DNA from: a virus
DNA length: 64,000 nucleotides
Strand: one strand, 5' to 3'
Virus record (IMG/VR): IMGVR_UViG_3300028563_000022
Span: 1-64,000 of that record
A program made the position numbers and the translations under genes. The notes under the pieces were generated by a model, which did no database searches, was not told the origin of the DNA, and saw nothing but the letters and a program-made list of their open reading frames with translations. Position 1 is the stretch's first letter, and each line of letters begins with the position of its first letter. Positions 3,579 through 63,139 of this stretch are shown here, in pieces.

Positions 3579-3995
3579 ATGAGCCCTATCTCCTGGATCA
3601 TGTCACTCCCGTTGTTCCTACTCTGCACGGTAGTTGGCATTTGCGCGCTCCGCGCGCACCGGGCCGCCCAAGACATCATGGTAGGACACCCAAAGTCCGC
3701 TGGTCGTCTTGGCAACTTTTCCCAGCTCTCATTCATGCTGTCCATGGGTGGCATCCTGGCCCAGGCGTTGTGGGCTCTCTCGCAGGACTCCAACTACCAG
3801 CCCAACCTGGCGGATGTTGTTTCAGTCCTGTGGGGTATCCTGGTTTTCATCTGCCTACTGGTCTGGAACATAACCGTTTTTGAGACGGCCAAAGACAAAC
3901 TTGTACCAACGAGGCCTTGCCGACCGTGCCCCTGGCGCGGGGAAGGCGAGGCCCACCTCCTTCCGGCTGGCTGCTGTAACAAGTCTGGAAAATAG
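3579..3995 (+). CDS. Multi-pass membrane protein of the lysis cluster
   Basis: A 138-aa protein with three hydrophobic segments (about residues 5-25, 48-66, 80-100) and a Cys/Pro-rich tail. A strong AAGGAG precedes the ATG. It lies between the holin and the HNH gene. It may be a second holin, an antiholin or a membrane protein acting in lysis timing or exclusion; I do not recognise a family. Confidence 0.6.
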   Translation: MSPISWIMSLPLFLLCTVVGICALRAHRAAQDIMVGHPKSAGRLGNFSQLSFMLSMGGILAQALWALSQDSNYQPNLADVVSVLWGILVFICLLVWNITVFETAKDKLVPTRPCRPCPWRGEGEAHLLPAGCCNKSGK

Positions 3996-3996
3996 A

Positions 3997-4383
3997 ATGC
4001 CTCCTCGCGCCCTCCGACCCTGCAAAGGCCCCGGCTGCCGGACCACCACACGAGACAGTTCCGGGTACTGCGACGTGTGCCGCCCGGCGGCCGAGGCCAA
4101 GCAGGCGGCTGTCGAGGCTAGCCTCGAGCAGCGCAGAGGGAGTTCCTCCAAGCGGGGCTACGGGTACGCTTGGCGTGACATCCGGGAACGGGTGCTGCGG
4201 CAGCACGGAGGCCTCTGCCTCGATTGCAAAAAAGAGAAAATGTTCATTCTCGCGGTTGAGGTCCATCACATAGATGGGGACTCAGCCAATAATGATTTTT
4301 TAAACCTCGCTCCCCTGTGCCGGGCACATCATGATCTTCGTCACGGTGTCCTCAAGGGCCGCAGGAAAGCGATCAGGAGTTGA
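3997..4383 (+). CDS. HNH endonuclease next to terminase
   Basis: A 128-aa protein with an HNH fold: GLCLDCKK and PLCRAHH supply two Cys pairs and EVHHIDGD holds the His-His-Asp of the active site. Many cos-type phages encode an HNH protein beside the terminase that is needed for specific DNA cutting during packaging; position and size fit that role. The open frame continues upstream to 3880, overlapping the membrane gene, but ATG 3997 begins right after that gene's stop and gives the family's usual length. Confidence 0.85.
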   Translation: MPPRALRPCKGPGCRTTTRDSSGYCDVCRPAAEAKQAAVEASLEQRRGSSSKRGYGYAWRDIRERVLRQHGGLCLDCKKEKMFILAVEVHHIDGDSANNDFLNLAPLCRAHHDLRHGVLKGRRKAIRS

Positions 4384-4385
4384 CC

Positions 4386-4901
4386 ATGGCTGGCCGTAAA
4401 ACACTTCCCACTGAGCTCAAGTTGGCCAAGGGCACCTTGCGCAAAGGCCGGACAAACCCGGCCGAGCCGAAGGCTATCTCTGAGGAACTGCTTCTCACTT
4501 GGCAGGCCGATCCGGACGTGCAGGAATGGTTCGAGCGGTTCAAGAATTATCTGCGGGGGGAAGGGCGGTTGTCCAAATCCCACGAGGTCGTGATCTGGCA
4601 GGCCGCCCGGCGCGCCGCGGAGATCAGAGCACTCGACGCGGATATCCTGGCGAACGGCCGCACTTACTGGACCGGCGAGCAGGTAAAGCCCGACCAGGCC
4701 GAGGCCAAAAAGCCCGACTCCCTGCTGCGGGGCCTGCTCAAGGCCAACCCCGCCGTGGCCCAGAAGAACGAGGCCGAGCGGCATCTCCATGGATTGCTTT
4801 CTGAGCTGGGGCTGACCCCGGCCAGCAAGAGCAAGGTGGCCTCGGCCATATCCGGGAAGGTTCCCGAAGCCTGGGCTGGGTTCGAGTCGGTGGGGGTTTA
4901 G
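4386..4901 (+). CDS. Terminase small subunit, P27 family
   Basis: A 171-aa protein starting AGRKTLPTELKLAKGTLRKGR, closely resembling the N-terminus of P27-type small terminases, with ELGLTPASKSKV near the C-terminus as in the family. It would recognise the packaging site and regulate the large subunit. The ATG at 4386 is preceded by AGGAG; the frame opens at a TTG six bases earlier. It follows the HNH endonuclease, and two tiny genes separate it from the large subunit. Confidence 0.85.
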   Translation: MAGRKTLPTELKLAKGTLRKGRTNPAEPKAISEELLLTWQADPDVQEWFERFKNYLRGEGRLSKSHEVVIWQAARRAAEIRALDADILANGRTYWTGEQVKPDQAEAKKPDSLLRGLLKANPAVAQKNEAERHLHGLLSELGLTPASKSKVASAISGKVPEAWAGFESVGV

Positions 4902-14162: not shown

Positions 14163-14263
14163 GCCCTTCTTTGGTGCGGCTACCGTTCATGGCGGGAAAA
14201 GGAGAACCCGGCTCCCTGCCGCACCAATTAACCGGAAAAACATCCTTCGGGAGGACATCAGTC

Positions 14264-31456: not shown

Positions 31457-31634
31457 TCAATTTTGTAGTCAATCAGAAAGTAGTCAAATTAAAAACTAGT
31501 TATATCTGCTAGTTACATGGCCTATCAACATCGCGGGTCATGATATCCTTTGCGTGTATCATCAGGTACTTAGGCCTCTTTGTTTGTAGTCAATTCTGAC
31601 GGGCTCAGTGGCTTGGCGGGGATTTTGTAGTCAA
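31452..31634. promoter_or_regulatory. attP: Putative attP with integrase arm-type repeats
   Basis: Five direct copies of GTAGTCAA (most as TGTAGTCAA) lie around the integrase 3' end: 31452-31460, 31464-31472, 31480-31487, 31585-31593 and 31626-31634, the last two inside the int coding region. Between them is a perfect inverted repeat AACTAG (31494-31499) / CTAGTT (31509-31514) that could be a core-type site. Arm-site clusters flanking a core next to int are characteristic of tyrosine integrase attP sites. The exact crossover core cannot be fixed without a host attB. Confidence 0.6.
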
Positions 31635-32643
31635 TTGTAGGAAGCATGTTGACCGCCTCCAGCTTCGCCCGGGGAATGACGTGTTGGTAGGTGTTCAGGG
31701 TTTGAGTTGGCTTCTTGTGACCCATCATGTCGGACACTGACCGCAAGTCCGCTCCGTTGCCCAGGGTGTATGTGGCGAAGTAATGCCGCAAGTCATAGGG
31801 CCGCAGGCGCCGGGTGATACCCGCGCGCTTCAGGGTGTTGTGCCAGCCAATCCAGCCTGACTTGGTTATCGGGCGCCCGAAGTAATGGACGATGTGCCCT
31901 TGGCCACCATCCTCATCCCGCCACACGGCCAGAAACCCACGTAACTGATCGGTCAGGGGGATGAATCGCGCGGGTATGCCCCGCTTCTTCGCACTGGTGA
32001 TGCGTAGAATCCCTTCATTGAAGTCCACATCATCCCAGGTCAGGCTGAACAGTTCCTTGCGCCCGGGGCGCACGCCGGTAAGCGCGGACAGCACCGCCAG
32101 GCGGAAGGTACTGGGCTTGGCATGTCGGAGGATAGCATGGAACTCCTCCTGGGTCGGCGGGTAGATGACATCGCGGTCATCCGGCAGCAGCGTGACACGC
32201 ACGGGCTTATCCAGGAGGTCAGCGTTGTAAGCATAGTTCAGGATCGACTTCACCAGGGCCAGGTGCTTGTTGATGGAGACATTCTTGATCTTCGTTTCTC
32301 GACAGGCATCCACCACGGCCTGGATGTGCTCTGTGGTGATCTTCTTCAGGAGGACTGTCCCGAGGATTGGCAGAATGTATTTGTTCAGGGTGTAGCCATC
32401 ACCGGACAGGGTGGTGCTGACAAAATCCTTAGAGGAGTAGTATGCCGGGAGGATACTGGCGAAGGTCTTATGGGAAACGGTAGGGGGCAGATTGGCCGCG
32501 GGCCGATGCTTCTTATTGTACTTGATCTGGGCGAGCTTCAGCTCAACTTCTTCCTCAGAGTCACCCTTTACCGGCTGCACACGGCCGGTGTGGTCCCGGT
32601 ACGTTCCGTACCAGCCCTTGCACCCTTTCTTTTGGTAGGCCAT
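31570..32643 (-). CDS. int: Tyrosine integrase
   Basis: A 357-aa site-specific recombinase. An arm-binding N-terminal region (about 1-55) precedes a SAM-like core-binding domain (about 57-145) and the catalytic domain with Arg 192 (LTGVRPG), Lys about 219, RPYDLRH (Arg 286, with Tyr in place of the first His of HxxR, as in many phage integrases), His 309 (MMGHKK) and nucleophile Tyr 319 (NTYQ). It would insert the phage at attB by recombination at the adjacent attP. Confidence 0.93.
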   Translation of the reverse strand: MAYQKKGCKGWYGTYRDHTGRVQPVKGDSEEEVELKLAQIKYNKKHRPAANLPPTVSHKTFASILPAYYSSKDFVSTTLSGDGYTLNKYILPILGTVLLKKITTEHIQAVVDACRETKIKNVSINKHLALVKSILNYAYNADLLDKPVRVTLLPDDRDVIYPPTQEEFHAILRHAKPSTFRLAVLSALTGVRPGRKELFSLTWDDVDFNEGILRITSAKKRGIPARFIPLTDQLRGFLAVWRDEDGGQGHIVHYFGRPITKSGWIGWHNTLKRAGITRRLRPYDLRHYFATYTLGNGADLRSVSDMMGHKKPTQTLNTYQHVIPRAKLEAVNMLPTIDYKIPAKPLSPSELTTNKEA

Positions 32644-37311: not shown

Positions 37312-37853
37312 CCTGTAGCGTCCTTGTAACTCATGATCCGCCCGGCACATTCCCTTATCTTCCCGTATCCCAGCGAAACCACCATATCCCAGAGAGTGTA
37401 CTCATCGAGGTCTGTTTCGCTGGCGTGGTTGGCACTCGGGCCGGGCGTCCAATTCTCGTGGGGGTTGATGCGGATGCAGATGGCGTGGAGGTCTCGCATG
37501 ACTTCAAGTTCTGACATGAACCGCATGTCATCCACGACAAGAAAGCATCCGGGCATGAGCTGGCAGCGTTCGGCCATCTTGCGGCTCCAGTAGTCTTTAT
37601 CAGAGGCCCGGCGGATTTCCGTACCCCACCATTGGAGGATTTCCCGGCCAGTCATCCGCCGGTTGCCGATTTGGAACTCCTCAGACTTGAACTCCTGGGT
37701 GTAAACGTCCCGGAGATACACGTTCAGCAACGCCGCCACTTCCTCTCTCAGAGCATCCGCGAAGGAGATTCTGTGCCCTGGACGAATCTGGAGCAGTTCA
37801 TCCGCCAGGGTGGTCTTTCCACAGCCCATTTTCCCGCTGAGCGCAATAATCAT
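37308..37853 (-). CDS. Deoxynucleoside monophosphate kinase
   Basis: A 181-aa P-loop kinase with Walker A GKMGCGKTT near the N-terminus, an RISFADALREEV substrate-binding stretch and VVDDMRF as the Walker B/lid element, similar to T4 gp1-type dNMP kinases. It would phosphorylate dNMPs for phage DNA synthesis. Overlaps ThyX by 4 nt, so the two nucleotide enzymes are coupled. Confidence 0.75.
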   Translation of the reverse strand: MIIALSGKMGCGKTTLADELLQIRPGHRISFADALREEVAALLNVYLRDVYTQEFKSEEFQIGNRRMTGREILQWWGTEIRRASDKDYWSRKMAERCQLMPGCFLVVDDMRFMSELEVMRDLHAICIRINPHENWTPGPSANHASETDLDEYTLWDMVVSLGYGKIRECAGRIMSYKDATG

Positions 37854-38629
37854 TTGGAATCCTCCTTCACCTGAATATCTTCAAACAGAACCGCCTCATC
37901 GCCGCGCTTCAGTTCCTTGAGCAACGGGGTCATGATCCGGCGCATTTCAGGATGGGCGGCCGGGGCCGTGCGCAGCTTGAAGATGTGGCGCCACTCCCGG
38001 GCGTTGGCCGTGACGACAATCTCCGTCTTGGTGGAGTTGGGCAGCACCTCGCGGGCCTGCTCGGGGCGCCAGCCGGCGTCAAGGAGGCCCAGGTACTTCA
38101 TCTCATCGTAATTCATAGCGTTCAGCCATGCGTAGTCACCACCGTCTGACACGGCGGCTTCGTGGTCCTCGTTCCACTCGTCTCTGCGCAAAGGCCACTC
38201 ACCCAGCAGGGCCTCGCCGCACCACACCGGCCGGATTACCACCAGCCCCTTCTTCTCGTAGTTCACATATCGGGTGCTTTCCTGGCTGAAGGCGCAGAGC
38301 CGGTGGCGCACGATCTCGTGGGTGACGCCGCGGTTCGTGATGAAGCGCACGGACATCATGGAGTGTTCCAGGACGGACTCATGGCCACGCTTGAGGAGCA
38401 TACAGATGAACTGGCTGGGTGGGTGTAAAGAGCACCCAGAGCAACTGTCATTGTCAGGGTTGGCACCATTTGCAGCACAGGAACCCTCAGCCACTACCCC
38501 CATAGAGTCTTTCGGCGCGGAACAAGTCCCCTTAGCCTCAGACTTGTAGCAGGTACGTCCAGCCAGTTCGATCAGGGCCGGGTCGATGTGCATGGCCAGG
38601 ATTTCATGTGATGGGTCAATGATGAGCAT
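37850..38629 (-). CDS. thyX: Flavin-dependent thymidylate synthase
   Basis: A 259-aa ThyX that would convert dUMP to dTMP with FAD and methylene-tetrahydrofolate. The signature is clear: ESVLEHSMMSVRFITNRGVTHEIVRHR, then SQESTRYVNY. ATG 38629 follows AGGAGG; the frame extends upstream without need. Unusually, between CYKSEAKG and QFICMLLKRGHESVLEH there is an insertion (about residues 34-72) with four Cys (36, 51, 63, 66), where other ThyX proteins have a short helix. Confidence 0.9.
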   Translation of the reverse strand: MLIIDPSHEILAMHIDPALIELAGRTCYKSEAKGTCSAPKDSMGVVAEGSCAANGANPDNDSCSGCSLHPPSQFICMLLKRGHESVLEHSMMSVRFITNRGVTHEIVRHRLCAFSQESTRYVNYEKKGLVVIRPVWCGEALLGEWPLRRDEWNEDHEAAVSDGGDYAWLNAMNYDEMKYLGLLDAGWRPEQAREVLPNSTKTEIVVTANAREWRHIFKLRTAPAAHPEMRRIMTPLLKELKRGDEAVLFEDIQVKEDSK

Positions 38630-38737
38630 GGTTTCCTCCTGAGTTTCTTTGAGCCGTTTACCCTCTTGACCACCTCGGCCGATTCGCCTATCAATAGGGC
38701 TCCTGGCACCGCTCATGTTTCGTGTTTCTTGATCCTG

Positions 38738-38764
38738 CCCCCGCACAGATTGTCTGTGCGGGGG
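38738..38764. other. Perfect hairpin that matches a TIGR spacer pair
   Basis: A 12-bp perfect stem CCCCCGCACAGA / TCTGTGCGGGGG with a TTG loop, between the DUF1937-like gene and thyX. On the plus strand it is followed by TTTGTCATTT, but the flanking genes run leftward, where no T-run follows. Its core, CGCACAGATTGTCTGTGC (38742-38759), equals the two 9-nt spacers of the last unit of the main array (51209-51217 plus 51227-51235) joined end to end. Confidence 0.85.
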
Positions 38765-38772
38765 TTTGTCAT

Positions 38773-39105
38773 TTATGGCTGATGGAAGATGATCGTTTTC
38801 CCACTCTCCCGAGCCCACTTGATCTCGTCTTTCACGCCGCGGGAGTGTTCCCAGCCAGGGAGACAGAGGACGCGCAACTGGTCACAGGCTTCAAGGTGAA
38901 CCTTGTCTTGGGCGCCCCAAAACTCCCAAGTCCTGCAAGAGAACGGGAGCCAGGGGAGCAGAGCGTGGCCGTGGGTTATGGGGCTGAAGACCACATGCCC
39001 TTCAAGCATGAGTTCTGCGGCCTTGGCACTTAACGCCTCCGCGCGACTGTTTCGGATTGCCTCGTCATCGTGGGTGTAGGGCCCGGCCAGATAGATTCGT
39101 TTCAT
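38773..39105 (-). CDS. DUF1937-like nucleoside-processing protein
   Basis: A 110-aa protein with MKRIYLAGPYTH at the start and VVFSPITHGHAL, a pattern shared with DUF1937 and nucleoside 2-deoxyribosyltransferase-like folds. It probably acts in nucleotide metabolism or DNA base modification. ATG 39105 overlaps the upstream stop (ATGA) and follows GAGGAAAG. Confidence 0.65.
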   Translation of the reverse strand: MKRIYLAGPYTHDDEAIRNSRAEALSAKAAELMLEGHVVFSPITHGHALLPWLPFSCRTWEFWGAQDKVHLEACDQLRVLCLPGWEHSRGVKDEIKWARESGKTIIFHQP

Positions 39106-42900: not shown

Positions 42901-43126
42901 AAAGGTCATCATCCTCCAGAATTTGGTCCGCAAAGTCAGTGCCTTCTGGCGGGTCTGTGCGCAGGATGCGCTCGGCCCATTCAGGCACCCAGATTCTTGG
43001 CGTTCCGCCATCCACTTTCACGGCGCAGCACATGATCTCTGTAAAAGGGTGTTCGGCGTAAACCCACTCGCCACATTTCTTCAGATCGCAGGGGCTTCGG
43101 GTTTCGTAGTCCAGTGTTAAGCGCAT
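39980..43126 (-). CDS. Family A DNA polymerase with intein
   Basis: A 1048-aa precursor; removal of a 319-aa intein leaves about 729 aa. The N-terminus has a 3'-5' exonuclease motif (LTLDYETRSP). Polymerase motif A is LISADFSSIEARV, motif B is RQIGKTVELA/CGYQGG, and motif C is VIHVHDEAV. The intein sits exactly inside motif B, between A and C. ATG 43126 overlaps the methyltransferase stop and follows AAGGA; the frame extends to 43177. It would be the phage replicative polymerase. Confidence 0.92.
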   Translation of the reverse strand: MRLTLDYETRSPCDLKKCGEWVYAEHPFTEIMCCAVKVDGGTPRIWVPEWAERILRTDPPEGTDFADQILEDDDLFDLLRKADEIECHNAGFERAVWSWCATRKYGWPEPDPKKLRCSLAKCAYHALPRSLDQAAKALELPIQKDMAGNRLMMKMCKPRKPLKKERAELEAAGCLVKPDGMIEPPYGAPAYYLWHEKPEDIVRLCEYCLQDVETEHAVSQALPDLPASELKVWQLDQEINARGIQIDQASVNVFILEIGKYEEKLLAETKVLTSGAVDSPKKIDKSLKWLALMGVGLVDLTKNSVAEALMRGGLPEHARRFLEIRQQLGRASTAKYDALRRAASSDGRIRGTMRYHGAATGRFSGRIFQPQNLPRGLFSDIEHCVAAAHENGFDDWFTTLFEDTLGAASTCIRGMLIAKPGHDLISADFSSIEARVNAWIAGEESVLEAFWNKQDIYKIAAAQMFNKTAPEVTKAERQIGKTVELACIAEDEQVLTDAGLVPIQHVTINMKVWDGTAFVAHDGVISRGIRSVITYQGLTATEDHTVWASPGILGECQQVQLGFAASCGQHLLQSGAGGTPLRVGGDNIPGAQIPPRLGGSVCGCSLHRMWENGLDISRQFNSGDKQRLSSVLSTSEGSALAHKTDDLRKESMPEHQGPRLAELRRQGDSIQVPHSSASCTLDSGNLGAAQGDGTGSDRQQWPLRAGEPAVHYQKGESAQPTPIEDNYPRCRMGDDQQPLQSRENDQVSSGGVSEGGHHRFGVQSSSGQTEGLGEDTPPTRTARVYDILNAGQRNRFTVSDCLVHNCGYQGGVGAYAAMAKNYGIDLESLPEHIFPLTPYGVMEQATKTALNYVKKNPGVMSHDAATACDIIKQLWRQKRPYIVALWAGLEEACINAVREPGKVWGYRSIKYLSDGRFLRCKLPSGRCLHYYKPDVKEKETPWGQKKAVVTFWGLDSMTNKFMPHHLYGGLLCENCTQAASRDILTDALIRLEDHGYPPVIHVHDEAVSEVPIGFGSVEEYEAIMSEPPAWAVGCPIAAEGYRANRYKK
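40712..41668 (-). mobile_element. Intein in polymerase motif B
   Basis: The intein starts at Cys (codon 41668-41666; block A CIAEDEQVLTDAGLVPI), has block B GLTATEDHTVWA with the conserved Thr and His, and ends with block F ARVYDILNAGQRNRFTVSD and block G VHN followed by Cys +1 (codon 40711-40709). Splicing would restore ELACGYQGG. The 319-aa frame contains no in-frame endonuclease; between blocks B and F it is low-complexity, because that DNA encodes an HNH protein in another frame. Confidence 0.88.
40762..41586 (-). CDS. HNH homing endonuclease nested out of frame in the intein
   Basis: An open frame lying wholly inside the intein but in a different reading frame from the polymerase. From about 41421 it encodes a typical phage HNH protein: QVGRRYGWVEII, Cys-rich VRCTGCGKTGW ... 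KGCQACSQ, then MELDRIDNNGHYEPGNLRYITRRENQRNQR, the H-N-H core. The upstream part of the frame (residues 1-50) looks like a shadow of intein coding. The true start is unclear; GTG 41397 has AGGAG only 3 nt upstream. Its end overlaps splicing block F. Confidence 0.8.
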   Translation of the reverse strand: MEPRSLLMMVLFPGVFVPLLLTKVSQQQKTIPCGPVPASSGNVSKYSLDSPPPADNISFNQEQVGRRYGWVEIISPERRYHRGWAEVYVAVRCTGCGKTGWTFLGNLTRGISKGCQACSQPRRVPLWLTKRMTSAKSRCQNTKDQGWPNYGARGIQFKFPTVLQAALWIQETLGLHREMELDRIDNNGHYEPGNLRYITRRENQRNQRRSKITTPDAEWATTSSPYSLGRTTKYLLAGYPKEAIIGLAYKAVLDKRKGWERIRLRLAQLGYTIS

Positions 43127-44604
43127 TTCAGTTCCTTCATCCTTGCGAGCACCATGTTTATGCGGCGGCCAATCCAACGGACAACCGGAACCGCGAAACT
43201 GTTTCCTATTGCTTTGTATCGTGGTCCATCAGGACAGAGTTCAGCAGGTTTTCCGCGCCATGGAATAAGTGTGTGGTTGCGGGGCATCCCCTGCAAAAAC
43301 TCGCACTCGACTGGAGTTAATCTTCTCACTTGCATGGCGATGACACAGCAGGGCGCGGCGTCGCCGCGCCCTGTCTTCCCCGCCTCGGCCTTCAGCGCGT
43401 TCACGATCCCGGCCGGGCCTCCGCGGTCATTGCGGGCGAAGCGCGGCTCGAAGGTAATGGCGGGGGGATGCACTCCGGCGGCCAAGGGGTGGCAGGGGTC
43501 GCCAGGCTTTGGATTGCACCTATTCGTTGCACTGGTTATCTGCGTGGTGTCAAAAGCCACGGCCACGGAGTTCTTGCTGCCCATCGAGGGTGAGAGGTCT
43601 TCCGTGCTGGCGCATTGCGTACCGGACAGGTTGGCGGGAAAGGCCACCGGAACCAGAGGCGTGCCCCGGCCGGTTCCATCCTCAGAGGCATCGAAGCCTT
43701 CGCCGCGAAGGCTGTGCGTAACGCAGAAGGTTTCGCTCTCGAAGTCCAGCCTCCCATGCGGTCCCGCATGGGAGGTGCGCGCCGTGGCCACGTCAATGGG
43801 GCCGGAGCAGTTGTTGCCACCGAAAGCTACGACTTGGAGGCTGTCACAGGTATCTACATCTGTCCCATAGGGTCGGTCCCCTCCGGTGTTATTGCCGCCT
43901 GCTCTAACGCACGGTGCAGCATCTCCGGCAACTTCTTTCCCCGTTTCTCGGCTCGGCGCAGAATCCCGGCGCAGGCCTTCGGACTCAAAAAGAATCGGGG
44001 GTCTATTGGACCAGTCTCCAAAATCTGCGAGAGCGAACACGCGGCGGCGTCGTTGCGGAACTCCGAAGAACTGTGCGTCCATACAGCTCCACTCTGCGAA
44101 CCCGTCAGGGCCGATAGCAACTCCGGTGTTTTGCCACCCTTTTTCTGGAATGGGGATTCCGCAGCCAACCATTTCTCCAAGTACAGCCGCAAAGTCTGCA
44201 CCTTGTTTACTGGAGAAGAGGCCGGGGACGTTCTCGATGAGTAAGAACCGGAGGTCGCAATGCTTACGGGCAAACCGAACAATATCCATAGCCGTAAAGA
44301 ATAAACCACTGCGGGTTGGGGTATCTGTTTTAGCATCAACAAGTCCTCTTCTATTTCCGGCGACGGATAAGTCCTGGCAAGGAAAGCCGCCTACTATAAG
44401 ATCAACGTGGCCGAGCTGCTTTACCCTTTCCTCGGTGATCTTGGTGATGTCCCCGAGGTTTGGGATGTTCGGAAAGCGATGGGCCAATACCGCAGAGGGG
44501 AAGGGTTCTATCTCCGCGAAAGCCACGGCTTCCCACCCCAAAGGTGCCCAGGCCAACGTGGCGGCTTCTATGCCACTGAACAGGGACAAATACCGGAGGC
44601 CCAC
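43117..44604 (-). CDS. C5-cytosine DNA methyltransferase
   Basis: A 495-aa enzyme. Motif I is LSLFSGIEAATLAW, motif IV with catalytic Cys is GGFPCQDLS, motif VI ENV, motif VIII QRRRRVF, and the C-terminal motif X is AIGNSFAVPVVRWI. A long segment between motifs VIII and IX (about residues 215-420) is Gly/Thr-rich and probably forms an enlarged target-recognition region. No restriction enzyme is nearby, so it likely protects phage DNA from host restriction. It overlaps the polymerase by 10 nt. Confidence 0.92.
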   Translation of the reverse strand: MGLRYLSLFSGIEAATLAWAPLGWEAVAFAEIEPFPSAVLAHRFPNIPNLGDITKITEERVKQLGHVDLIVGGFPCQDLSVAGNRRGLVDAKTDTPTRSGLFFTAMDIVRFARKHCDLRFLLIENVPGLFSSKQGADFAAVLGEMVGCGIPIPEKGWQNTGVAIGPDGFAEWSCMDAQFFGVPQRRRRVFALADFGDWSNRPPILFESEGLRRDSAPSRETGKEVAGDAAPCVRAGGNNTGGDRPYGTDVDTCDSLQVVAFGGNNCSGPIDVATARTSHAGPHGRLDFESETFCVTHSLRGEGFDASEDGTGRGTPLVPVAFPANLSGTQCASTEDLSPSMGSKNSVAVAFDTTQITSATNRCNPKPGDPCHPLAAGVHPPAITFEPRFARNDRGGPAGIVNALKAEAGKTGRGDAAPCCVIAMQVRRLTPVECEFLQGMPRNHTLIPWRGKPAELCPDGPRYKAIGNSFAVPVVRWIGRRINMVLARMKELKCA

Positions 44605-49932: not shown

Positions 49933-50559
49933 TTAGCACACCACAGCGCGGGCAGCATGGAAAGGCTTGGGGTTCTTGGCCTTCGTGACCGTGGCCTTCA
50001 ATTTCTGAACCTGCTCCTTCAGCTCCCTGTTCTCCTCCTCCAGAAGCAGCCGCACCTCGTGTTCCTTCTGGTACATCGCCTGCCAGTCGTTGACCTGCTT
50101 CGTGATGGGCGCGGTCGCCTTGGCGAAGCGGGTCAGAACAGAGTCAAGGATGGCCGCGGGCACGGGGGACTTGCGCTTGTCTTGGGCGGACTGGATGGCC
50201 GCAAACACCTTGGGCATCTTCTCTTCCCCACAGCGACGGAGCGCCCGGACCACGAAGCCGCTACCGAACTGCTCTGACTCCTCGGGGAAGAGAAAGAAGG
50301 CCTGGCGCAGGCTATTGTAGAAGGCGAAGGTCAGGTTGAAGCGATCCTTCAGATACGTCGAGAAATCAGAGCCCCTATGGCCCGGGCTCTCCTTGAAACG
50401 AGAGGTGCGCTCCAGATAGAAGAGGGCACTGATGAACTGGCGCTGTGCGCTGTTCGCGGCCAAGCGGCCAGCTTCCACCGCGGTTTCAATTGATTGGATG
50501 TCCGAGTCATTGTAAAGAGACTTTAACTCTGTGAGGCTCATTGTCTTCTTGGTATCCAT
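49933..50559 (-). CDS. Helical protein with C-terminal coiled coil
   Basis: A 208-aa protein immediately downstream of the main repeat array. The N-terminal 150 residues are helical with many aromatic residues (DFSTYLKDRFNLTFAFYNSLRQAFF), and 150-195 form a coiled coil with a basic end. I recognise no family. Because it shares the leftward transcript with the TIGR-Tas locus, a role in array processing or as a partner protein deserves a test. Confidence 0.5.
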   Translation of the reverse strand: MDTKKTMSLTELKSLYNDSDIQSIETAVEAGRLAANSAQRQFISALFYLERTSRFKESPGHRGSDFSTYLKDRFNLTFAFYNSLRQAFFLFPEESEQFGSGFVVRALRRCGEEKMPKVFAAIQSAQDKRKSPVPAAILDSVLTRFAKATAPITKQVNDWQAMYQKEHEVRLLLEEENRELKEQVQKLKATVTKAKNPKPFHAARAVVC

Positions 50560-50589
50560 TTTCTTGCTCCGGTTTGTTAAAGGGTTTTT

Positions 50590-51237
50590 AGACGCAGGGG
50601 CTTTTTGGGTTTAACAGGTTGATTGACTCGCAGTTCGGTTCTAGATTTAAAACGCCAATTTACTCGCAGGGGCACACTAGGTTTAACCACAAACCTGACT
50701 CGCAACTCCACGCTAGGTTTTACAGCTACCTTTACTCGCAATTTTTGATTAGGTTTAACGCCATGAATTACTCGAATGCCTGAAATAAGTTTTAAGGAAT
50801 GCCTTACTCGCAGTCCCAAAATAAGTTTTACAGTTTGCCTTACTCGCATTCCCAAAATAAGTTTTACGGTTTGCCTTACTCGCAGTCCCGCTCTAGGTTT
50901 AAGGTGTTCAATTACTCGCAAGGTAAGGATAGGCTTAATATCCCGTTTTACTCGCAGTTATCCCGTAGGTTTAATGCATTGCGTTACTCGCATTTTATAC
51001 ATAGGCTTAAATCCAGCTCTTACTCGCAGCACCCGATTAGGTTTTAAAGGCTTATTTACTCGCACAGAGTTGGTAGATTTAATTCCACTCTTTACTCGCA
51101 ATTTTTGATTAGGTTTAAATTCACCAATTACTCGCATATATCCTTTAGGTTTCAATTACGCAGTTACTCGCACGACCACACTAGGTTTAACACCTCGATT
51201 TACTCGCACGCACAGATTAGGTTTTATGTCTGTGCTT
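50590..51237 (-). repeat. Main TIGR array, 18 units of 36 bp
   Basis: Eighteen back-to-back 36-bp units: edge TTACTCGCA (ACTCGCA plus the preceding TT), 9-nt spacer S1, loop TAGGTTTAA or a variant, 9-nt spacer S2 (plus-strand sense). Spacers S1/S2 by unit: U0 GGGGCTTTT/CAGGTTGAT; U1 GTTCGGTTC/AACGCCAAT; U2 GGGGCACAC/CCACAAACC; U3 ACTCCACGC/CAGCTACCT; U4 ATTTTTGAT/CGCCATGAA; U5 TGCCTGAAA/AGGAATGCC; U6 GTCCCAAAA/CAGTTTGCC; U7 TTCCCAAAA/CGGTTTGCC; U8 GTCCCGCTC/GGTGTTCAA; U9 AGGTAAGGA/TATCCCGTT; U10 GTTATCCCG/TGCATTGCG; U11 TTTTATACA/ATCCAGCTC; U12 GCACCCGAT/AAGGCTTAT; U13 CAGAGTTGG/TTCCACTCT; U14 ATTTTTGAT/ATTCACCAA; U15 TATATCCTT/ATTACGCAG; U16 CGACCACAC/CACCTCGAT; U17 CGCACAGAT/TGTCTGTGC. The geometry equals that of TIGR arrays, which yield 36-nt two-spacer guide RNAs. 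The transcribed strand is inferred from neighbours. Confidence 0.88.
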
Positions 51238-51249
51238 ACTCAAAAGTTC

Positions 51250-52107
51250 CTACGCCGCTTTTTCAGCAACGCCTTCAAAGTACGGGGGCTTGATGTAGTG
51301 GTCTTCGCTGTGCCCCATGATCGTGAAGGCGTAGGGCAGCGACACCGGCTTTCCATCGAGTGTCCGTGCCACGGTCCACATGTGTGCCAAGAACAGGCGC
51401 CCGGCCTCATTTCTGGCCATGTTCATGCGGTGCATCTTCGTGGCGTCCGGGTGGGTCTTCAACCGCTTCACAATCCGGGCGTCATAGAAGTCCCGATACA
51501 GGCACTTCTCCGGAGACAGCTTCATGAAGGATGTCCCAATAAGGTAGGCCAAGGTACGGCCGGCGGTAGACCAGTCGCATACCACTCCAGCTTTACGCTT
51601 AGGCTTCCGGCCCTCAGCATCGCAGTGGACGCCCATGAACTTCCACCAGGAGGAGATGCAGGGGAAGTCACGTTCGACGACCTTGTACTTCGTGTTGCCC
51701 TCACCTTTGGAACTCTTCTGGCAGGTCTCGCACCAGAAGGTGCCTTCCTGCTTTATCAACCCCGTGCCACACTCACACACCGGCACGAACTTGTAGTAGT
51801 ACATGACAATGAGCTTGGCCCCAAAGGAAGGTCCGATGCCGGGGACCTGCTTCAGCCATTGGGTCCACAAGGGCCAATGGATCAGCTCCTTTTCCATGCG
51901 CCGGACGAGGGCCCCTTTGACAGCCTCAAGACCCTTCGTGCCATTCTCGCCTCCGAGCAAGAAGTCATTCTTGGGGTTTACCTCGGGGTTCATCTGGAGA
52001 AGGCGTTGCTTGGTCCCGGTGATGAGGTCTGTGATGCCATCGTAAGTGCGCACCATGAACTTCAAGTAATTGATCGCTTCGATGTTTTCCTGGCTTGTTG
52101 GTTTCAT
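51250..52107 (-). CDS. Tas protein, Nop-domain, nuclease-less (TasA-type)
   Basis: A 285-aa protein embedded between two parts of the array. Residues 1-85 are helical; VPGIGP (88-93) opens a helix-hairpin-helix; FPCISSWWKFMGVH (148-161) and GRTLAYLIGTSFMK (183-196) correspond to the C-terminal part of IS110/IS116 transposases, the region that resembles the Nop fold of box C/D proteins. A zinc-ribbon-like insert (Cys 111, 113, 126, 129) lies in the middle. There is no DEDD/RuvC or HNH domain. In TIGR-Tas systems the Nop-domain protein binds the two-spacer guide; lacking a nuclease, this one would bind rather than cut DNA. Confidence 0.8.
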   Translation of the reverse strand: MKPTSQENIEAINYLKFMVRTYDGITDLITGTKQRLLQMNPEVNPKNDFLLGGENGTKGLEAVKGALVRRMEKELIHWPLWTQWLKQVPGIGPSFGAKLIVMYYYKFVPVCECGTGLIKQEGTFWCETCQKSSKGEGNTKYKVVERDFPCISSWWKFMGVHCDAEGRKPKRKAGVVCDWSTAGRTLAYLIGTSFMKLSPEKCLYRDFYDARIVKRLKTHPDATKMHRMNMARNEAGRLFLAHMWTVARTLDGKPVSLPYAFTIMGHSEDHYIKPPYFEGVAEKAA

Positions 52108-52136
52108 GTTCTGATCCTTTTAATTAGAGGGTTGGG

Positions 52137-52340
52137 GTTCGCACTCTGGGCTTCGGTTTAAAATAGGCAATCGCTCGCATCGGCTTTATGGGTTTCAGTT
52201 ATCCGTTTACTCGCAACCCCGTTCTAGATTTAAAGTGTTTTTTTACTCGTACTGGCATCTTAGATTTAAAGGTTATCATTACTCGCATTGCTTGCTTGGG
52301 TTTGACAAAGCGCCTCACTCTGTTCTTACTTTAAGTTTAA
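52137..52340 (-). repeat. Second TIGR array segment, about six units
   Basis: The same 36-bp plan continues upstream of the tas gene (leftward sense): unit starts at 52137, 52173, 52209, 52245, 52281 and a decayed one at 52317. S1/S2 pairs: V0 CTCTGGGCT/AATAGGCAA; V1 TCGGCTTTA/GTTATCCGT; V2 ACCCCGTTC/AGTGTTTTT; V3 CTGGCATCT/AGGTTATCA; V4 TTGCTTGCT/CAAAGCGCC. Edges and loops are more degenerate than in the main array (GTTCGCA, GCTCGCA, ACTCGTA; TCGGTTTAA, TGGGTTTCA, TGGGTTTGA), so this may be the older end. It lies between the probable promoter and the tas start. Confidence 0.82.
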
Positions 52341-52372
52341 CCCCGCCGGCACACCCGCCGCTCACGACCCTT

Positions 52373-52401
52373 AAATATTGTTAAACAAGACTTTCTGTCA
52401 A
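52373..52401 (-). promoter_or_regulatory. Promoter with internal operator for the TIGR-Tas locus
   Basis: Reading leftward: TTGACA (52401-52396), 17 nt, then ATATTT (52378-52373). The spacer contains a full copy of the dispersed motif GTCTTGTTTAAC (52391-52380). A repressor bound there would block RNA polymerase. Transcription would run through the second array segment, tas, the main array and beyond. Confidence 0.6.
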
Positions 52402-52523
52402 GCTAATTTCTATAACCAAAGCTACTTTTCTTAAAACAGGGCGCGACATTTTAATAATATCGTTGAATAACGGGTATTTATATAACCAAACTTTACAAAC
52501 CAGGTGATACCACAGCCCGCGTA

Positions 52524-53630
52524 TCATTTTACTAGCCCAAACCTCTTGAGTCTGCCTTGGAGCGCCGGGTAGCTGATACCCAAGGCTTCTGCTGTGCGCA
52601 TCCGGTTCCCCTTGTTGGCTTCTAGGGCTTCAACCAAGAGTGAACGCTTGGCCTCCCACAACTTGGCCTTGGCCAAGCGTTTTGCTTCCAGAGCCTCGAC
52701 CGCAGCCGAACGCCTAGCCAAGCGTTCGGCCAAGCGTTTGTGTTTTGCTTCCAGAGCCTCGACCGCAGCCGAACGCCTAGCCAAGCGTTCGGCCAAGCGT
52801 TTGTGTTTTGCTTCCAGAGCCTCGACCGCAGCCGAACGCCTAGCCAAGCGTTTGTGTTTTGCTTCCAGAGCCTCGACCTTGGCTAAGCGCATTGCCTCCT
52901 GAGCCTGAGCCTCAGCCAAGCGTTTGGCCTCAGTCACCCTGGAATCCGTGGGGGACACGCGCCACCCGGTTGAGGGGGGCTCAATAAACACCCCACGAAT
53001 CATGGAATTGTCAGACACTTTACAGGTTTCCACCCGAGACAGGGTTCCTTCTGGGGTAAGAACCAGAGCATAATGGGTGCCAGAAATAGCCGCAGCGGAT
53101 GTCTCCAGATTCACCAGGAAGACCCCCCAATCGTTGGTTATCATGGCGAGCTTGGCCATTGGGCCCCAGGAACTCTGGTACTGCTCACGGGGCAACCAGA
53201 TATCCTGGGTGTAACTCTCTTCAGTGATGACTTGTCCGTCCTGAGAAACCCCGGCCACCATCTTCTTAATGTAGATGAAGCGCATGATCTTTTCCACGGC
53301 TTCCTGGCCACCAAGCAGGTCATAACCACGCTGCCGGAACTCCTCTATGGAACACGCGCCAATCTTCATTGCTGCGCGCTCCATGACATCCTGCCGGGCG
53401 GTATATACCCCATCAAAGAGCTGGTAGACATGAGAGCGGGACACACCGAGGTTGGTGGCCATGTCAGGAGCTTTCAGTCCTTTCTCCATGGCGACAAAAG
53501 AGAGCTGCGCGAGCCACGCGACATAGGCCGGGTCTTTGATCCGCGGATTCTCCTCAATAACCTTCAAAAACGCTTCGTACCACTCCGAGTGGAGCTGGTC
53601 CGGCGTCCGTCCTTTTCTCTTGATCTTCAT
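52524..53630 (-). CDS. Repressor-like regulator with two HTH domains
   Basis: A 368-aa protein. Residues 53-79 (APDMATNLGVSRSHVYQLF) form an XRE-type helix-turn-helix. About 125-220 resembles the fold of S24/CI repressors (ISGTHYALVLTPEGTLSRVE) but lacks the catalytic Ser motif. Next comes a repetitive coiled coil built from 21-aa units (VEALEAKHKRLAERLARRSAA), and the end is a Fis-type HTH (NKGNRMRTAEALGISYPALQGRLKRF). ATG 53630 has GAGGAGA upstream. It is divergent from a Cro-like gene, the position of a lysogeny repressor. Activity as repressor is inferred. Confidence 0.65.
   Translation of the reverse strand: MKIKRKGRTPDQLHSEWYEAFLKVIEENPRIKDPAYVAWLAQLSFVAMEKGLKAPDMATNLGVSRSHVYQLFDGVYTARQDVMERAAMKIGACSIEEFRQRGYDLLGGQEAVEKIMRFIYIKKMVAGVSQDGQVITEESYTQDIWLPREQYQSSWGPMAKLAMITNDWGVFLVNLETSAAAISGTHYALVLTPEGTLSRVETCKVSDNSMIRGVFIEPPSTGWRVSPTDSRVTEAKRLAEAQAQEAMRLAKVEALEAKHKRLARRSAAVEALEAKHKRLAERLARRSAAVEALEAKHKRLAERLARRSAAVEALEAKRLAKAKLWEAKRSLLVEALEANKGNRMRTAEALGISYPALQGRLKRFGLVK
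52681..52857 (-). repeat. Coding minisatellite, 63-bp units
   Basis: DNA units start at 52681, 52744 and 52807, followed by a partial unit at 52858. Copies are identical over 63 bp except that the third lacks 12 bp. Identity at every base, synonymous sites included, indicates very recent expansion or ongoing slippage. Each unit adds 21 residues of coiled coil (six heptads per two units), lengthening the arm between the regulator's two DNA-binding domains without changing frame. Confidence 0.85.
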
Positions 53631-53680
53631 GGCTTGTCTCCTCGGGAAATTAAAGTTGACACTCGCATGTGTTCGGCCCC

Positions 53681-53715
53681 TCATTATCATTATTTTTGCT
53701 CCTGTCAAACAAAAA
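53681..53715 (-). promoter_or_regulatory. Repressor promoter with operator-like overlap
   Basis: Reading leftward: TTGACA (53708-53703), 16 nt, TAATGA (53686-53681), about 50 bp before the regulator ATG. A variant of the dispersed motif (TTTTTGTTTGACA, complement of 53703-53715) covers the -35 box, as expected for autoregulation. The rest of the 170-bp divergent region is AT-rich and contains the near-palindrome ACAAAATTTGT. Confidence 0.55.
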
Positions 53716-57484: not shown

Positions 57485-59092
57485 TCAAATGCCCAATTTC
57501 GAGTCCAGAATCTTTCCGATGTCATGGGCCTTCCCAGCCGCGCAACTCAGGATCGTGGCGTCCAGCGACTCCGCGACCACCAACACATGGATGTAGACAC
57601 CATGCGCCTGGCCAATCCTGTGGCAACGGTCCACGGCCTGCTCATTCTCACCCGGCACCCATGAACCCTCGGCCAACACCACGTTCGATGAGCTCGTCAA
57701 AGTCAGGCCAGTCCCGGCCGCCTGGAGATTGCCAACAAACACTTGGCAAGAGGCGTCATTCTGGAAAGCATCCACCGCGGCCTGGCGTTTCGTGTCGTTC
57801 AATCCACCAAGTACCATGACCGCGCCATAGGGTTTTAACCCCTCGGTCAAAAGCTGGATCACATCCCGGTGCCAGCCGAAGACCACGACTTTCTTGGCAC
57901 CGTCTTTAAGCAGCCCCTTGACGTACTCGATGACCAACGGGGCCTTGGCGATGCCCATTTCTCGCCGGACTTCGGCCAGGGGTGAACCCGCCGGCACGCC
58001 GCTGTTCAGAATCTCCCGGGCGCTAAAGGGTTTTTCCTTGTCCAGTACCTTCTTGGTCTGAGCATCAGCGTCGAAAACTACCATTTTATGGAGCTTCGCC
58101 GGGAGCTGTTTCAAAACATCTGCCTTGCTCCTGCGGACCATGAACCCGGCGCGCAACCGCAACCCGAGCTCAGTTTCATTCCGACTACCTTTTACCCGGT
58201 AGTCATATTGGTCCCACATGAAATAGCTGAATCTGTCCGCGAACTCCTCGAAGCCCCGGCAGTCGGCGATCAGGTGAGGTGCGCACGCCCGCAGAATGGG
58301 CCACAGCTCGGCCGCCCGGTTTGGTGCTGGGGTGCCACTCAGAAAAAGGATTTGGCCCGCGGCGTTGACCAGTGGCTCGACGTACCGGGTGCCAAGGATT
58401 TTCTTGGACCGCTTGGACTTGGGCTCCTTCAGTGCATGGGCCTCGTCAAAGATCATCAGGTCATAAGGACCAAAGGCCCGCAATTTCTCCGCGTGCTTGA
58501 CCGCAGCCTCGTAAGACACCACGGTCCAGGTCGGATTCGTTTCACTTCGGAGTAATTTATTCTTCAAAGACCGAAAGATTGCTGTGTAGGGGTTGTTGAT
58601 CCCCCAAAGGGCCACTTCCCTGGTCCAGTTGATCCGCAAGTGAGCGGGGCATACGACCAGGACATTCCTGTCCTTCTTGACGTTGGCCACTCCTATCGCC
58701 TGGGCTGTTTTCCCCAGGCCCGGCTCGTCGGCAATGTAGGCAACTTTCAGGCTATGCGCATACTCGACCCCGGCCCGCTGGTATGGGTAAAGTTCCATCC
58801 CTTCGGGCAGGGGTACTTTGAAGTTTGAGGTCTCTGCGTAGGACATTTCCAATCGCTGCCGAAAGGCAGCAAGCTCGGGCAATCGAGGTGCCAAGCGGTA
58901 AGCGATGGCCTGGTCACTGGTGGCGTACTCGTGATGCAACGGGCTCATCTTGTACCCGGCGGACTTGGCGATGCCCCGATCCACAAACGCCCCGCGCCAG
59001 ACATACAGGCCCGTGCGGAAGCCATCCGAGGCTTTCGGATAGAACGTCACCTGTTCGGTACGGTCGGAGACTATGGCTTGATCGGTGCTCAT
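57485..59092 (-). CDS. SNF2-family helicase
   Basis: A 535-aa superfamily 2 ATPase of the SNF2 type: motif I ADEPGLGKTAQAIG, motif II DEAHAL, motif III LSGTPAPN, then the C-terminal helicase lobe with LQAAGTGLTLTSSSNVV and motif VI QAVDRCHRIGQ. Such phage proteins remodel protein-DNA complexes during replication or late transcription. It runs opposite to the replication operon; its 3' end borders the fourth iteron copy. Confidence 0.9.
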   Translation of the reverse strand: MSTDQAIVSDRTEQVTFYPKASDGFRTGLYVWRGAFVDRGIAKSAGYKMSPLHHEYATSDQAIAYRLAPRLPELAAFRQRLEMSYAETSNFKVPLPEGMELYPYQRAGVEYAHSLKVAYIADEPGLGKTAQAIGVANVKKDRNVLVVCPAHLRINWTREVALWGINNPYTAIFRSLKNKLLRSETNPTWTVVSYEAAVKHAEKLRAFGPYDLMIFDEAHALKEPKSKRSKKILGTRYVEPLVNAAGQILFLSGTPAPNRAAELWPILRACAPHLIADCRGFEEFADRFSYFMWDQYDYRVKGSRNETELGLRLRAGFMVRRSKADVLKQLPAKLHKMVVFDADAQTKKVLDKEKPFSAREILNSGVPAGSPLAEVRREMGIAKAPLVIEYVKGLLKDGAKKVVVFGWHRDVIQLLTEGLKPYGAVMVLGGLNDTKRQAAVDAFQNDASCQVFVGNLQAAGTGLTLTSSSNVVLAEGSWVPGENEQAVDRCHRIGQAHGVYIHVLVVAESLDATILSCAAGKAHDIGKILDSKLGI

Positions 59093-60152: not shown

Positions 60153-60263
60153 TTAACCATACTTTCGGAGGGCGAGCCTGATGCCTTCGGCAAGCCGTAG
60201 ACAATAAACGTAATGATTACGGTATGTTATGCGGTATCCTGGGCCGATGTGTTTGACCCCCAT
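60153..60263 (-). CDS. 36-aa basic peptide gene
   Basis: A short gene with AGAGGAG before its ATG; the product is basic and aromatic (GVKHIGPGYRITYRNHYVYC...). Its promoter-proximal part and first 20 or so codons were duplicated upstream as part of a 95-bp tandem repeat, giving a truncated copy at 60287-60358 that ends after 23 codons. Confidence 0.45.
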   Translation of the reverse strand: MGVKHIGPGYRITYRNHYVYCLRLAEGIRLALRKYG

Positions 60264-60389
60264 GGTGTTTTGCTCCTCTTTTCGGGTTAAACAAGACAAT
60301 AAACGTAATGATTACGGTATGTTATGCGGTATCCTGGGCCGATGTGTTTGACCCCCATGGTGTTTTGCTCCTCTTTTCGGGTTAAACAA
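60200..60389. repeat. Perfect 95-bp tandem duplication
   Basis: Two identical 95-bp copies, 60200-60294 and 60295-60389. Each includes an operator-like motif (60286-60297 and 60381-60392), a ribosome-binding site, an ATG and the first 23 codons of a small gene. Sequence identity implies a very recent event. The duplication doubles the operator and creates a truncated peptide frame. Confidence 0.9.
60286..60297 (-). promoter_or_regulatory. Dispersed operator-like motif, site 11
   Basis: GTCTTGTTTAAC read leftward, inside the duplicated region, 23 nt before the start of the 36-aa gene. Confidence 0.55.
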
Positions 60390-60392
60390 GAC
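60381..60392 (-). promoter_or_regulatory. Dispersed operator-like motif, site 12
   Basis: GTCTTGTTTAAC read leftward, second copy created by the 95-bp duplication; its first base touches the stop codon of the gene ending at 60392. Confidence 0.55.
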
Positions 60393-62100: not shown

Positions 62101-62112
62101 GTTAAACCAGAT
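62101..62112 (-). promoter_or_regulatory. Dispersed operator-like motif, site 13
   Basis: ATCTGGTTTAAC read leftward, a variant directly after the ArdA stop codon. Confidence 0.45.
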
Positions 62113-62786
62113 TAAACGTACCGATTGAAAACCGCGACATTTCCATTTTCCAAACGCTCGCTCGAATAATCGTTTATGAACAGGTCCCGAGAAAACTTTT
62201 CATAATCAAAATAGTATTGCAGGTTTTCAGGTACACTTGACAACATGCCAGTGTCGTCAACAAGTGAGTAGGTGAAATCGAGCTCGCTGTCATACTCGCC
62301 TTGAAATGCTTCCTCAAAATTGTTTATTGCATCGTCCAAGTCTCCCCGATCCGAAAGGAAAGCAAGAAACGCTTCCGCGTTTTCGCCGTGCTCGGTTATG
62401 GCGGCCGCGAGTTTTACCACTTCAGGGATGCCCGAATATTCCTGAAGACGGTAGGAACCGAATCCCTCGAAATCGTGAATTGCAAACTCTTCCGCGCTTC
62501 CGTAGGGCTCGGAACAGGTAACGCTCGCGCTTTCCTCACAATCCGGGCAGACTGCCGGTTGATCCGTGCCGTTGGCTGTCTGGGTGAAAGTGGTCCCGCA
62601 ATCCTCACAAGTACAATCCCGGCGGATTACGTTTGGAAACTTCGACCCTTTGAGCATAAGGTTTATTTCTTTGTAAACGTCGTCTTCGTCCTTTCCATCC
62701 AGGTCGATCCAGGTGCCATGCAGACGGCCGTTGTTGTAGTCTGCCAGACTGGATACATATATGCGGGGTTCAAGTGCGTTTCCCAT
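62112..62786 (-). CDS. ardA: ArdA-type antirestriction protein with zinc insert
   Basis: A 224-aa protein. PRIYVSSLADYNNGRLHGTWIDL (8-29) and AIHDFEGFG with a long acidic C-terminal half (FEEAFQGEYDSELDF, DYEKFSRDLF) match ArdA, a B-DNA mimic that blocks type I restriction-modification enzymes. Standard ArdA is about 165 aa; here a block at about 55-95 adds CTCEDC and CPDC pairs (Cys 60, 63, 80, 83), a zinc ribbon. ATG 62786 starts the conserved region; the frame extends to 62876. Confidence 0.82.
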   Translation of the reverse strand: MGNALEPRIYVSSLADYNNGRLHGTWIDLDGKDEDDVYKEINLMLKGSKFPNVIRRDCTCEDCGTTFTQTANGTDQPAVCPDCEESASVTCSEPYGSAEEFAIHDFEGFGSYRLQEYSGIPEVVKLAAAITEHGENAEAFLAFLSDRGDLDDAINNFEEAFQGEYDSELDFTYSLVDDTGMLSSVPENLQYYFDYEKFSRDLFINDYSSERLENGNVAVFNRYV

Positions 62787-62830
62787 TTTATCTGCTCCTC
62801 GTGTTAAGTGTTTATGTTCCTGTCCTGTTT

Positions 62831-62856
62831 CAAGCCGGGCGTTTGTTCCCGGCTTG
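62831..62856 (-). promoter_or_regulatory. Leader hairpin upstream of ardA
   Basis: CAAGCCGGG / CCCGGCTTG, a perfect 9-bp stem with 8-nt loop, followed in the leftward sense by GAAACAGGACAGGAACA and the ardA ribosome-binding site. Similar hairpin plus CAGGATTG-type leaders precede the genes starting at 59354, 59705, 61296 and 62017. Confidence 0.55.
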
Positions 62857-62872
62857 CGTAGCAGGGCAAGAC

Positions 62873-63139
62873 TCATACGGGGAAATTTACCATTGCTTGT
62901 TCTTTGTCTATTGTTATGTGGTATTGTATGTGCTTGTTACTAACTTCTGTTCCTATAACCCTTCTCCATTTCCCATGAACGAGCACAAGGTATACTGTCT
63001 TGAATGTACTTTGACGCGGGGTTATGTGTAACAGGCGCTTTTCTGGGAGTGCCTTTATCTTGGCCTCGACCATTTCTGTTAGTTTCGGTTTCGGTGGAAA
63101 TGAATCATCAAAGTATCCAAAGTGTACGTATGCTTCCAT
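62873..63139 (-). CDS. Small hypothetical protein
   Basis: An 88-aa protein with mixed alpha/beta pattern (FKTVYLVLVHGKWRRVIGTEV). GGAG precedes the ATG. It lies in the AT-rich accessory cluster; function unknown. Confidence 0.5.
   Translation of the reverse strand: MEAYVHFGYFDDSFPPKPKLTEMVEAKIKALPEKRLLHITPRQSTFKTVYLVLVHGKWRRVIGTEVSNKHIQYHITIDKEQAMVNFPV

Follow-up and report, generated by a model that had tools for sequence, protein, structure and literature searches.

A Nop-type RNA-binding domain is found in IS110 transposases and in the box C/D Nop proteins. Nop-domain Tas proteins form the protein part of the TIGR-Tas systems, whose arrays sit "upstream and/or downstream" of the tas gene (PMC12045711). 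The founding paper (PMC12045711) names as open both the role of the nuclease-less form, TasA, and the way in which TIGR arrays change. Here we describe a TIGR-TasA locus in an uncultured phage, virus record IMGVR_UViG_3300028563_000022. The window, the whole stretch of DNA analysed, is 64,000 bp long and covers almost all of this 64,276-bp IMG/VR record. A first-pass annotation, made from the sequence alone, had placed a tas gene within its array at 50590–52340. The locus reaches beyond these limits, as the array reads into a further gene on the minus strand (49933–50559), here called gene3. This conserved downstream partner gene is the most distinctive feature of the locus, and the first-pass annotation missed it.

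Results

Read in the sense of the tas gene, the locus runs in operon order from an upstream array through tasA, which carries a zinc ribbon, and a downstream array into gene3, all on one strand. tasA (51250–52107, minus strand) encodes the 285-residue protein noted in the first-pass annotation, and comparisons with profiles, with structures by Foldseek, and with PHROG and NCBIfam support its assignment as a nuclease-less Tas protein of the TasA type. With phmmer, the only PDB chain matched is TasR (9mty, E 1.8e-21), and a six-member family profile matches both TasR (9mty, E 1.6e-37) and TasH (21kl, E 5.7e-8). The protein also matches phrog_4285 (E 1.2e-19). A search of Tas profile models, suggested earlier as a check, does return TIGR_Tas_endo of NCBIfam, at 78.4 bits and thus under that model's cut-off of 100. 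The structural comparison proposed alongside it gives TasR and TasH as the best Foldseek matches, from a model of low confidence (mean predicted local distance difference test score, pLDDT, 55.6). We took 30 homologous loci from viral and genome contigs (L numbers below are our designations for such loci); by our own count, 23 of them have an array with a period of 35–37 bp nearby. Together with the TasR and TasH profile matches, these neighbouring arrays bear out the proposed membership of the TIGR-Tas family.

About 65 residues precede the Nop part of the window protein (the region aligned to TasR residue 156), versus 155 in TasR. This N-terminal part is too short for a RuvC domain, and the protein has no HNH motif and no Pfam domain; it therefore falls into the TasA type, as previously proposed. 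The names attached to its PHROG and PDB matches read "transposase", which could be taken to point to a remnant of an IS110-type element, or to plain tandem repeats, rather than to a guide system. There is no Pfam transposase domain and no N-terminal catalytic domain, and a dual-repeat array with fixed 9-nt spacers is conserved beside the homologs, so we regard such an origin as extremely improbable. Membership of the IS110 family itself was also examined, and no Pfam match was obtained for the window protein even at E 1.

Homologs were found by alignment-based scans of viral contigs; scans with single proteins gave nothing for tasA and no confirmed match for gene3. Among isolate phages we found no close relative of the module, and among plasmids no match to tasA.

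The downstream array (50588–51244, minus strand) comprises 18 consecutive units of exactly 36 bp, with unit starts at 50588, 50624 and so on to 51200 (unit span 51235–50588). Each unit contains two variable 9-mers alternating with two conserved ones, as the first-pass annotation had described. The conserved 9-mers read TTACTCGCA and TAGGTTTAA on the plus strand, and TGCGAGTAA and TTAAACCTA on the tas-sense strand, giving the order edge TGCGAGTAA, spacer A, loop TTAAACCTA, spacer B. This is the dual-repeat format of two alternating 8–12-nt repeats separated by spacers of about 9 nt. As in other TIGR-Tas arrays, the ends are truncated: the first edge retains only its terminal GAGTAA, and the last is reduced to TGCGTCTAA. 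The upstream array (52135–52323, minus strand) has five recognizable units, starting at 52135, 52171, 52207, 52243 and 52279, in which one edge (TGCGAGCGA) and the loops TGAAACCCA and TCAAACCCA match or nearly match the consensus from related viruses. A sixth unit, at about 52315–52339, is degenerate, and the earlier count of about six is thus a fair one. The division of the array around tasA, which had been singled out as worth describing, is real but not new, since arrays on both sides of tas have been described (PMC12045711).

When the whole 64 kb was scanned on both strands at a threshold of at least 14 of 18 matches to the edge-plus-loop consensus, 22 matches were obtained, all within the locus and none on the opposite strand; the array is therefore not a product of chance. 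Both arrays and tasA share the minus strand, and the units are best read in the tas sense. This orientation, and with it the assignment of edge and loop, is fixed by the array of Microcystis phage Mvi-JY20, whose tas homolog is 27% identical: read in the tas sense, this array has ATGCGAGCC as its edge and ACGAAACCC as its loop, and it ends in a terminator-like hairpin and T-run on the tas-sense strand. The clade consensus, TGCGAGCSA for the edge and TGAAACCCA for the loop, fits a matching of box D (UG) and box C (CCA) between the two repeats; most loops of the window depart from it at box D. RNAalifold gave no meaningful structure for five units.

We note that the cores GCGAG and GAAAC persist in the edges and loops of distant Tas clades (arrays of L004, at 2160–2440, L016, L017 and L036). 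A sequence model of these two cores at fixed spacing could detect arrays without the gene.

The zinc-ribbon insert suggested by the first-pass annotation (C111, C113, C126 and C129; 51721–51777, minus strand) is real, and it also defines a clade. It is present in all 23 clade members and in none of 29 other Tas proteins, and in a tree of these 52 proteins every Cys4 protein falls on one side of a single branch (SH-aLRT 98). On this tree the window TasA belongs to the well-supported zinc-ribbon clade.

gene3 encodes 208 residues and starts about 33 nt past the last truncated edge (TGCG), with a ribosome-binding site. There is no terminator-like site between the downstream array and gene3, a terminator being typical but not defining for TIGR-Tas. 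gene3 accompanies 21 of the 23 zinc-ribbon loci and none of the 29 other Tas loci, counts based on flanks of only a few kilobases and including some contigs that end early. All of the gene3 homologs that we found adjoin a zinc-ribbon tasA gene. They occupy the same position in L033 (a virus-like contig of a Methanoperedens metagenome-assembled genome, MAG), L004, L034 and L036, stand beside the tasA locus in L035, and lie upstream of tas in L059. Such a junction recurs in at least 15 of these 21 loci: the last edge of the array is cut short to TGCG or TGTG, a Shine-Dalgarno sequence and the start codon of gene3 come within the next few tens of bases, and no terminator intervenes.

In L044 (7000–7307) the array-to-ribosome-binding-site junction is retained and leads to an unrelated ORF of 87 residues in place of gene3. 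In L035 (3163–4983 and 5960–6354), whose module has a piece of array at either end, a DNA-methyltransferase-like gene (3974–4768) lies between tasA and gene3, perhaps as an insertion into the array.

In its predicted structure (pLDDT 79.5) the gene3 product consists of helices only, those at the C terminus forming a coiled coil (residues 159–195), and the protein is probably dimeric. Pfam, PHROGs, PADLOC, NCBIfam, the sequences and folds of the PDB, and viral folds yielded nothing specific for it, the weak matches being coiled-coil noise, and isolate phages gave no match; comparison by hhalign with two ParB proteins and two DUF1016-type proteins stayed at noise level. Median identity within the family is 28%, versus 48% for TasA, which places its members under the 50% clustering used in the founding paper (PMC12045711) and is the likely reason why the gene went unreported.

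These properties bear on two rival accounts of gene3. The first equates it with TasParB, the ParB-like protein that has been reported beside some tasA genes and was annotated by HHpred matches to ParB domains, including ParB-like CTPases (PMC12045711). The arrangement is alike, in that TasParB forms an operon with tasA, has arrays upstream, between and downstream, lies in diverse flanks and has been proposed to dimerize through its C terminus (PMC12045711). Against this identity, gene3 is all-helical and shows no ParB match in Pfam, the PDB or Foldseek and no hhalign signal to the two ParB proteins. The same comparisons gave no support for placing it in the ParB-Srx superfamily. The identity is thus improbable, and gene3 appears to be a different partner, set apart from TasParB by the published description of the latter and by the two ParB proteins compared here.

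The second account holds that this is an ordinary TIGR-TasA locus, with nothing beyond the published family, and that gene3 is an unrelated phage regulator carried on the same transcript. Published TasA acts without partners (PMC12045711), gene3 resembles a generic helical, coiled-coil protein, and two zinc-ribbon loci are without it. The account sits poorly with the restriction of gene3 homologs to zinc-ribbon TasA loci, with the retention of the tasA-gene3 pair in viruses with unrelated flanks, and with the covariation of the two proteins, whose distances correlate (Mantel rho 0.70, p 0.0005). We consider it unlikely, though by no means negligible. The TIGR system here probably consists of more than one protein plus guides.

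The TIGR modules of L038 (5600–8012) and L039 (5600–7958) are close relatives set in unrelated flanks, and nearly all of their spacers have been replaced. At the DNA level, tasA is 92.9% and gene3 86.8% identical between the two; the repeats are 82–87% alike, and the spacers agree at 26%, the chance level. One unit is clearly common to both (15 of 18 positions) and one more appears partly so. A second pair, L050 and L060, is 99.3% identical over the module and has essentially the same spacers. Across 251 units from 22 loci, identical half-units occur three times, against 0.03 expected; in the window, units 9 and 19 have an identical spacer B and unrelated spacers A. Units 16 and 17 of the window are near-duplicates, with unit 18 a weaker relative, and in units 6 and 10 spacer A resembles the reverse complement of spacer B, as for direct-repeat-like targets (p about 0.05). 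The divergence of the L038 and L039 spacers and the identical half-units indicate that spacers evolve far more quickly than the genes and that the two halves of a unit can move independently. This amounts to direct evidence for rapid replacement of spacers and for exchange of half-units, and it bears on how arrays evolve.

Targets were sought with a geometry derived from the published system (PMC12045711), in which the top strand reads spacer A followed by the reverse complement of spacer B, with a gap of 0–2. In the phage genome no self-target was found at up to two mismatches, and the counts at three to four mismatches equal those of re-paired or shuffled controls; searches with correct, opposite-strand and re-paired spacers all stayed at chance level. 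When 251 units were searched for in 518 kb of related loci, two matches turned up at one mismatch and 23 at two. These are not convincing beside the order-swapped controls (0 and 12) and the estimated chance numbers (about 0.6 and 15). Four units of L033 yielded a single two-mismatch match in the MAG that holds it, which equals chance.

These searches also bear on whether the system serves the phage itself, by RNA-guided regulation of its own genes or by bending DNA to aid its integrase (31570–32643, minus strand). The locus adjoins a repressor-like helix-turn-helix (HTH) gene (52524–53708, minus strand) in a phage that has an integrase, and help to an integrase has been suggested for TasA by the published authors. 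The chance-level self-matches speak against such a use, and 23 different guides with near-complete spacer replacement between relatives do not fit fixed sites in the phage's own genome. We judge either use improbable.

Upstream of the whole operon lies a promoter-like site, TTGACA and AATATT separated by 16 nt (52374–52401, minus strand). It is a consensus match only, in a region where such matches are only about twice as frequent as the shuffled mean. Two 15-bp direct repeats, ATTTCTATAACCAAA (52406–52420) and ATTTATATAACCAAA (52476–52490), are identical at 14 of 15 positions and 70 bp apart, with no other exact copy in the window. The operator-controlled promoter proposed earlier thus has a promoter-like site in place, while the operator is only suggested, by these repeats.

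The surrounding genes include a terminase, a portal protein and the tyrosine-type integrase, and hence the record represents a temperate tailed phage. Further genes encode ThyX (37850–38818), a C5 cytosine methylase (43117–44604), a SNF2-type helicase (57485–59092) and an anti-restriction protein (phrog_2059; 62112–62876, minus strand). The repressor-like gene contains a perfect 63-bp tandem repeat (2.8 copies, 52679–52852) in its 3' coding part, which lengthens a coiled-coil segment between an HTH_3-like and a Fis-type HTH. A perfect 95-bp direct duplication (2.0 copies) occupies 60199–60392, and a match to the Rfam int-alpA RNA (RF02996, 37.7 bits, barely above the gathering score) lies at 14173–14239 on the plus strand.

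Discussion

The family, the absence of a nuclease, the anatomy, strand and operon order of the locus, the zinc-ribbon clade, the co-inheritance of gene3 and the turnover of spacers in two relatives are established here. The partner gene, the clade and the terminator-less junction between array and gene3 appear to be new. Considered together, these data make it very probable that the locus represents a distinct sub-type of TIGR-TasA with a general mode of action as an RNA-guided DNA-binding system, the binding itself being argued by analogy.

By comparison with characterized systems, the locus would be transcribed as a single minus-strand RNA starting near 52370. If TIGR-Tas biochemistry holds here, the arrays would be cut in the middle of the edge repeats into 36-nt tigRNAs, each consisting of half an edge, spacer A, loop, spacer B and half an edge, and each tigRNA would be held by a TasA dimer. 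The target would span 18 bp (A plus the reverse complement of B on its top strand), with spacer A pairing to one strand and spacer B to the other, and would be opened and bent and left uncut. More tentatively, a cut at the last truncated edge might free the gene3 message, and the product would most likely work together with the TasA complex, either joining it on the bound target or regulating how guides are made.

The likeliest use of such a system would be cleavage-free interference with other mobile elements, through a block of replication or expression or through their loss; we hold this with slightly less than even confidence. Spacer turnover and the lack of self-targets make fixed self-regulation fit less well than interference. 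A bolder proposal, which we put forward as possible rather than probable, is that zinc-ribbon TasA joins with gene3 in an RNA-guided, nuclease-free complex of two proteins, a separate sub-type in which gene3 is essential and tigRNA processing releases its message. Guides would be replaced wholesale between close relatives and their halves swapped independently, as if tracking changing targets.

Several observations weigh against the sub-type and its proposed use. Two zinc-ribbon loci, L044 and L057, are without gene3, which could simply be carried along with the module or serve as an ordinary regulator. TasA is poorly modelled by AlphaFold. The loops of the window mostly have TT or TA at box D, not TG, which blurs the box C/D covariation between edge and loop. 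No natural target was found in the record itself, in the 518 kb of related loci or in the L033 MAG, and support for interference is therefore indirect. A clade-wide partner protein without known relatives offers a concrete handle on the function of TasA.

Comparison with known systems places the locus more closely. The Nop-type RNA-binding domain is shared with IS110 transposases and box C/D Nop proteins, but unlike an IS110 transposase the window system has neither a DEDD domain nor a bridge RNA, and its guides come as an array. The 9-nt repeats are also unlike the 25–36-nt repeats that accompany cas genes in CRISPR-Cas, and neither tasA nor gene3 matches a cas gene or a defence system in PADLOC-DB. 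TIGR-TasR (TaTIGR; 9mty) resembles the locus in array format and in the sequence and fold of the Nop domain; the window protein differs in having no RuvC domain. Similarity to TIGR-TasH (the Salicola phage CGphi29 type; 21kl, 9w02) lies likewise in the Nop domain, whereas the HNH domain is absent from the window TasA, whose Cys4 insert sits in the middle of the protein and includes no His. The TasA-TasParB operons (PMC12045711, fig. S14) also join tasA to a second gene, with arrays before, between and after, but gene3 has no ParB-type domain in any comparison, TasParB being known here by its description. The TIGR-TasA of Flavonifractor plautii (FpTIGR; PMC12045711) likewise has a solo Nop-domain Tas protein, dual 9-nt repeats, 9-nt spacers, a 36-bp unit and truncated end edges. 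From this system the window locus is distinguished by the zinc-ribbon insert of its TasA, a drifted box D in the loop, a terminator-less array within the operon and the conserved gene3.
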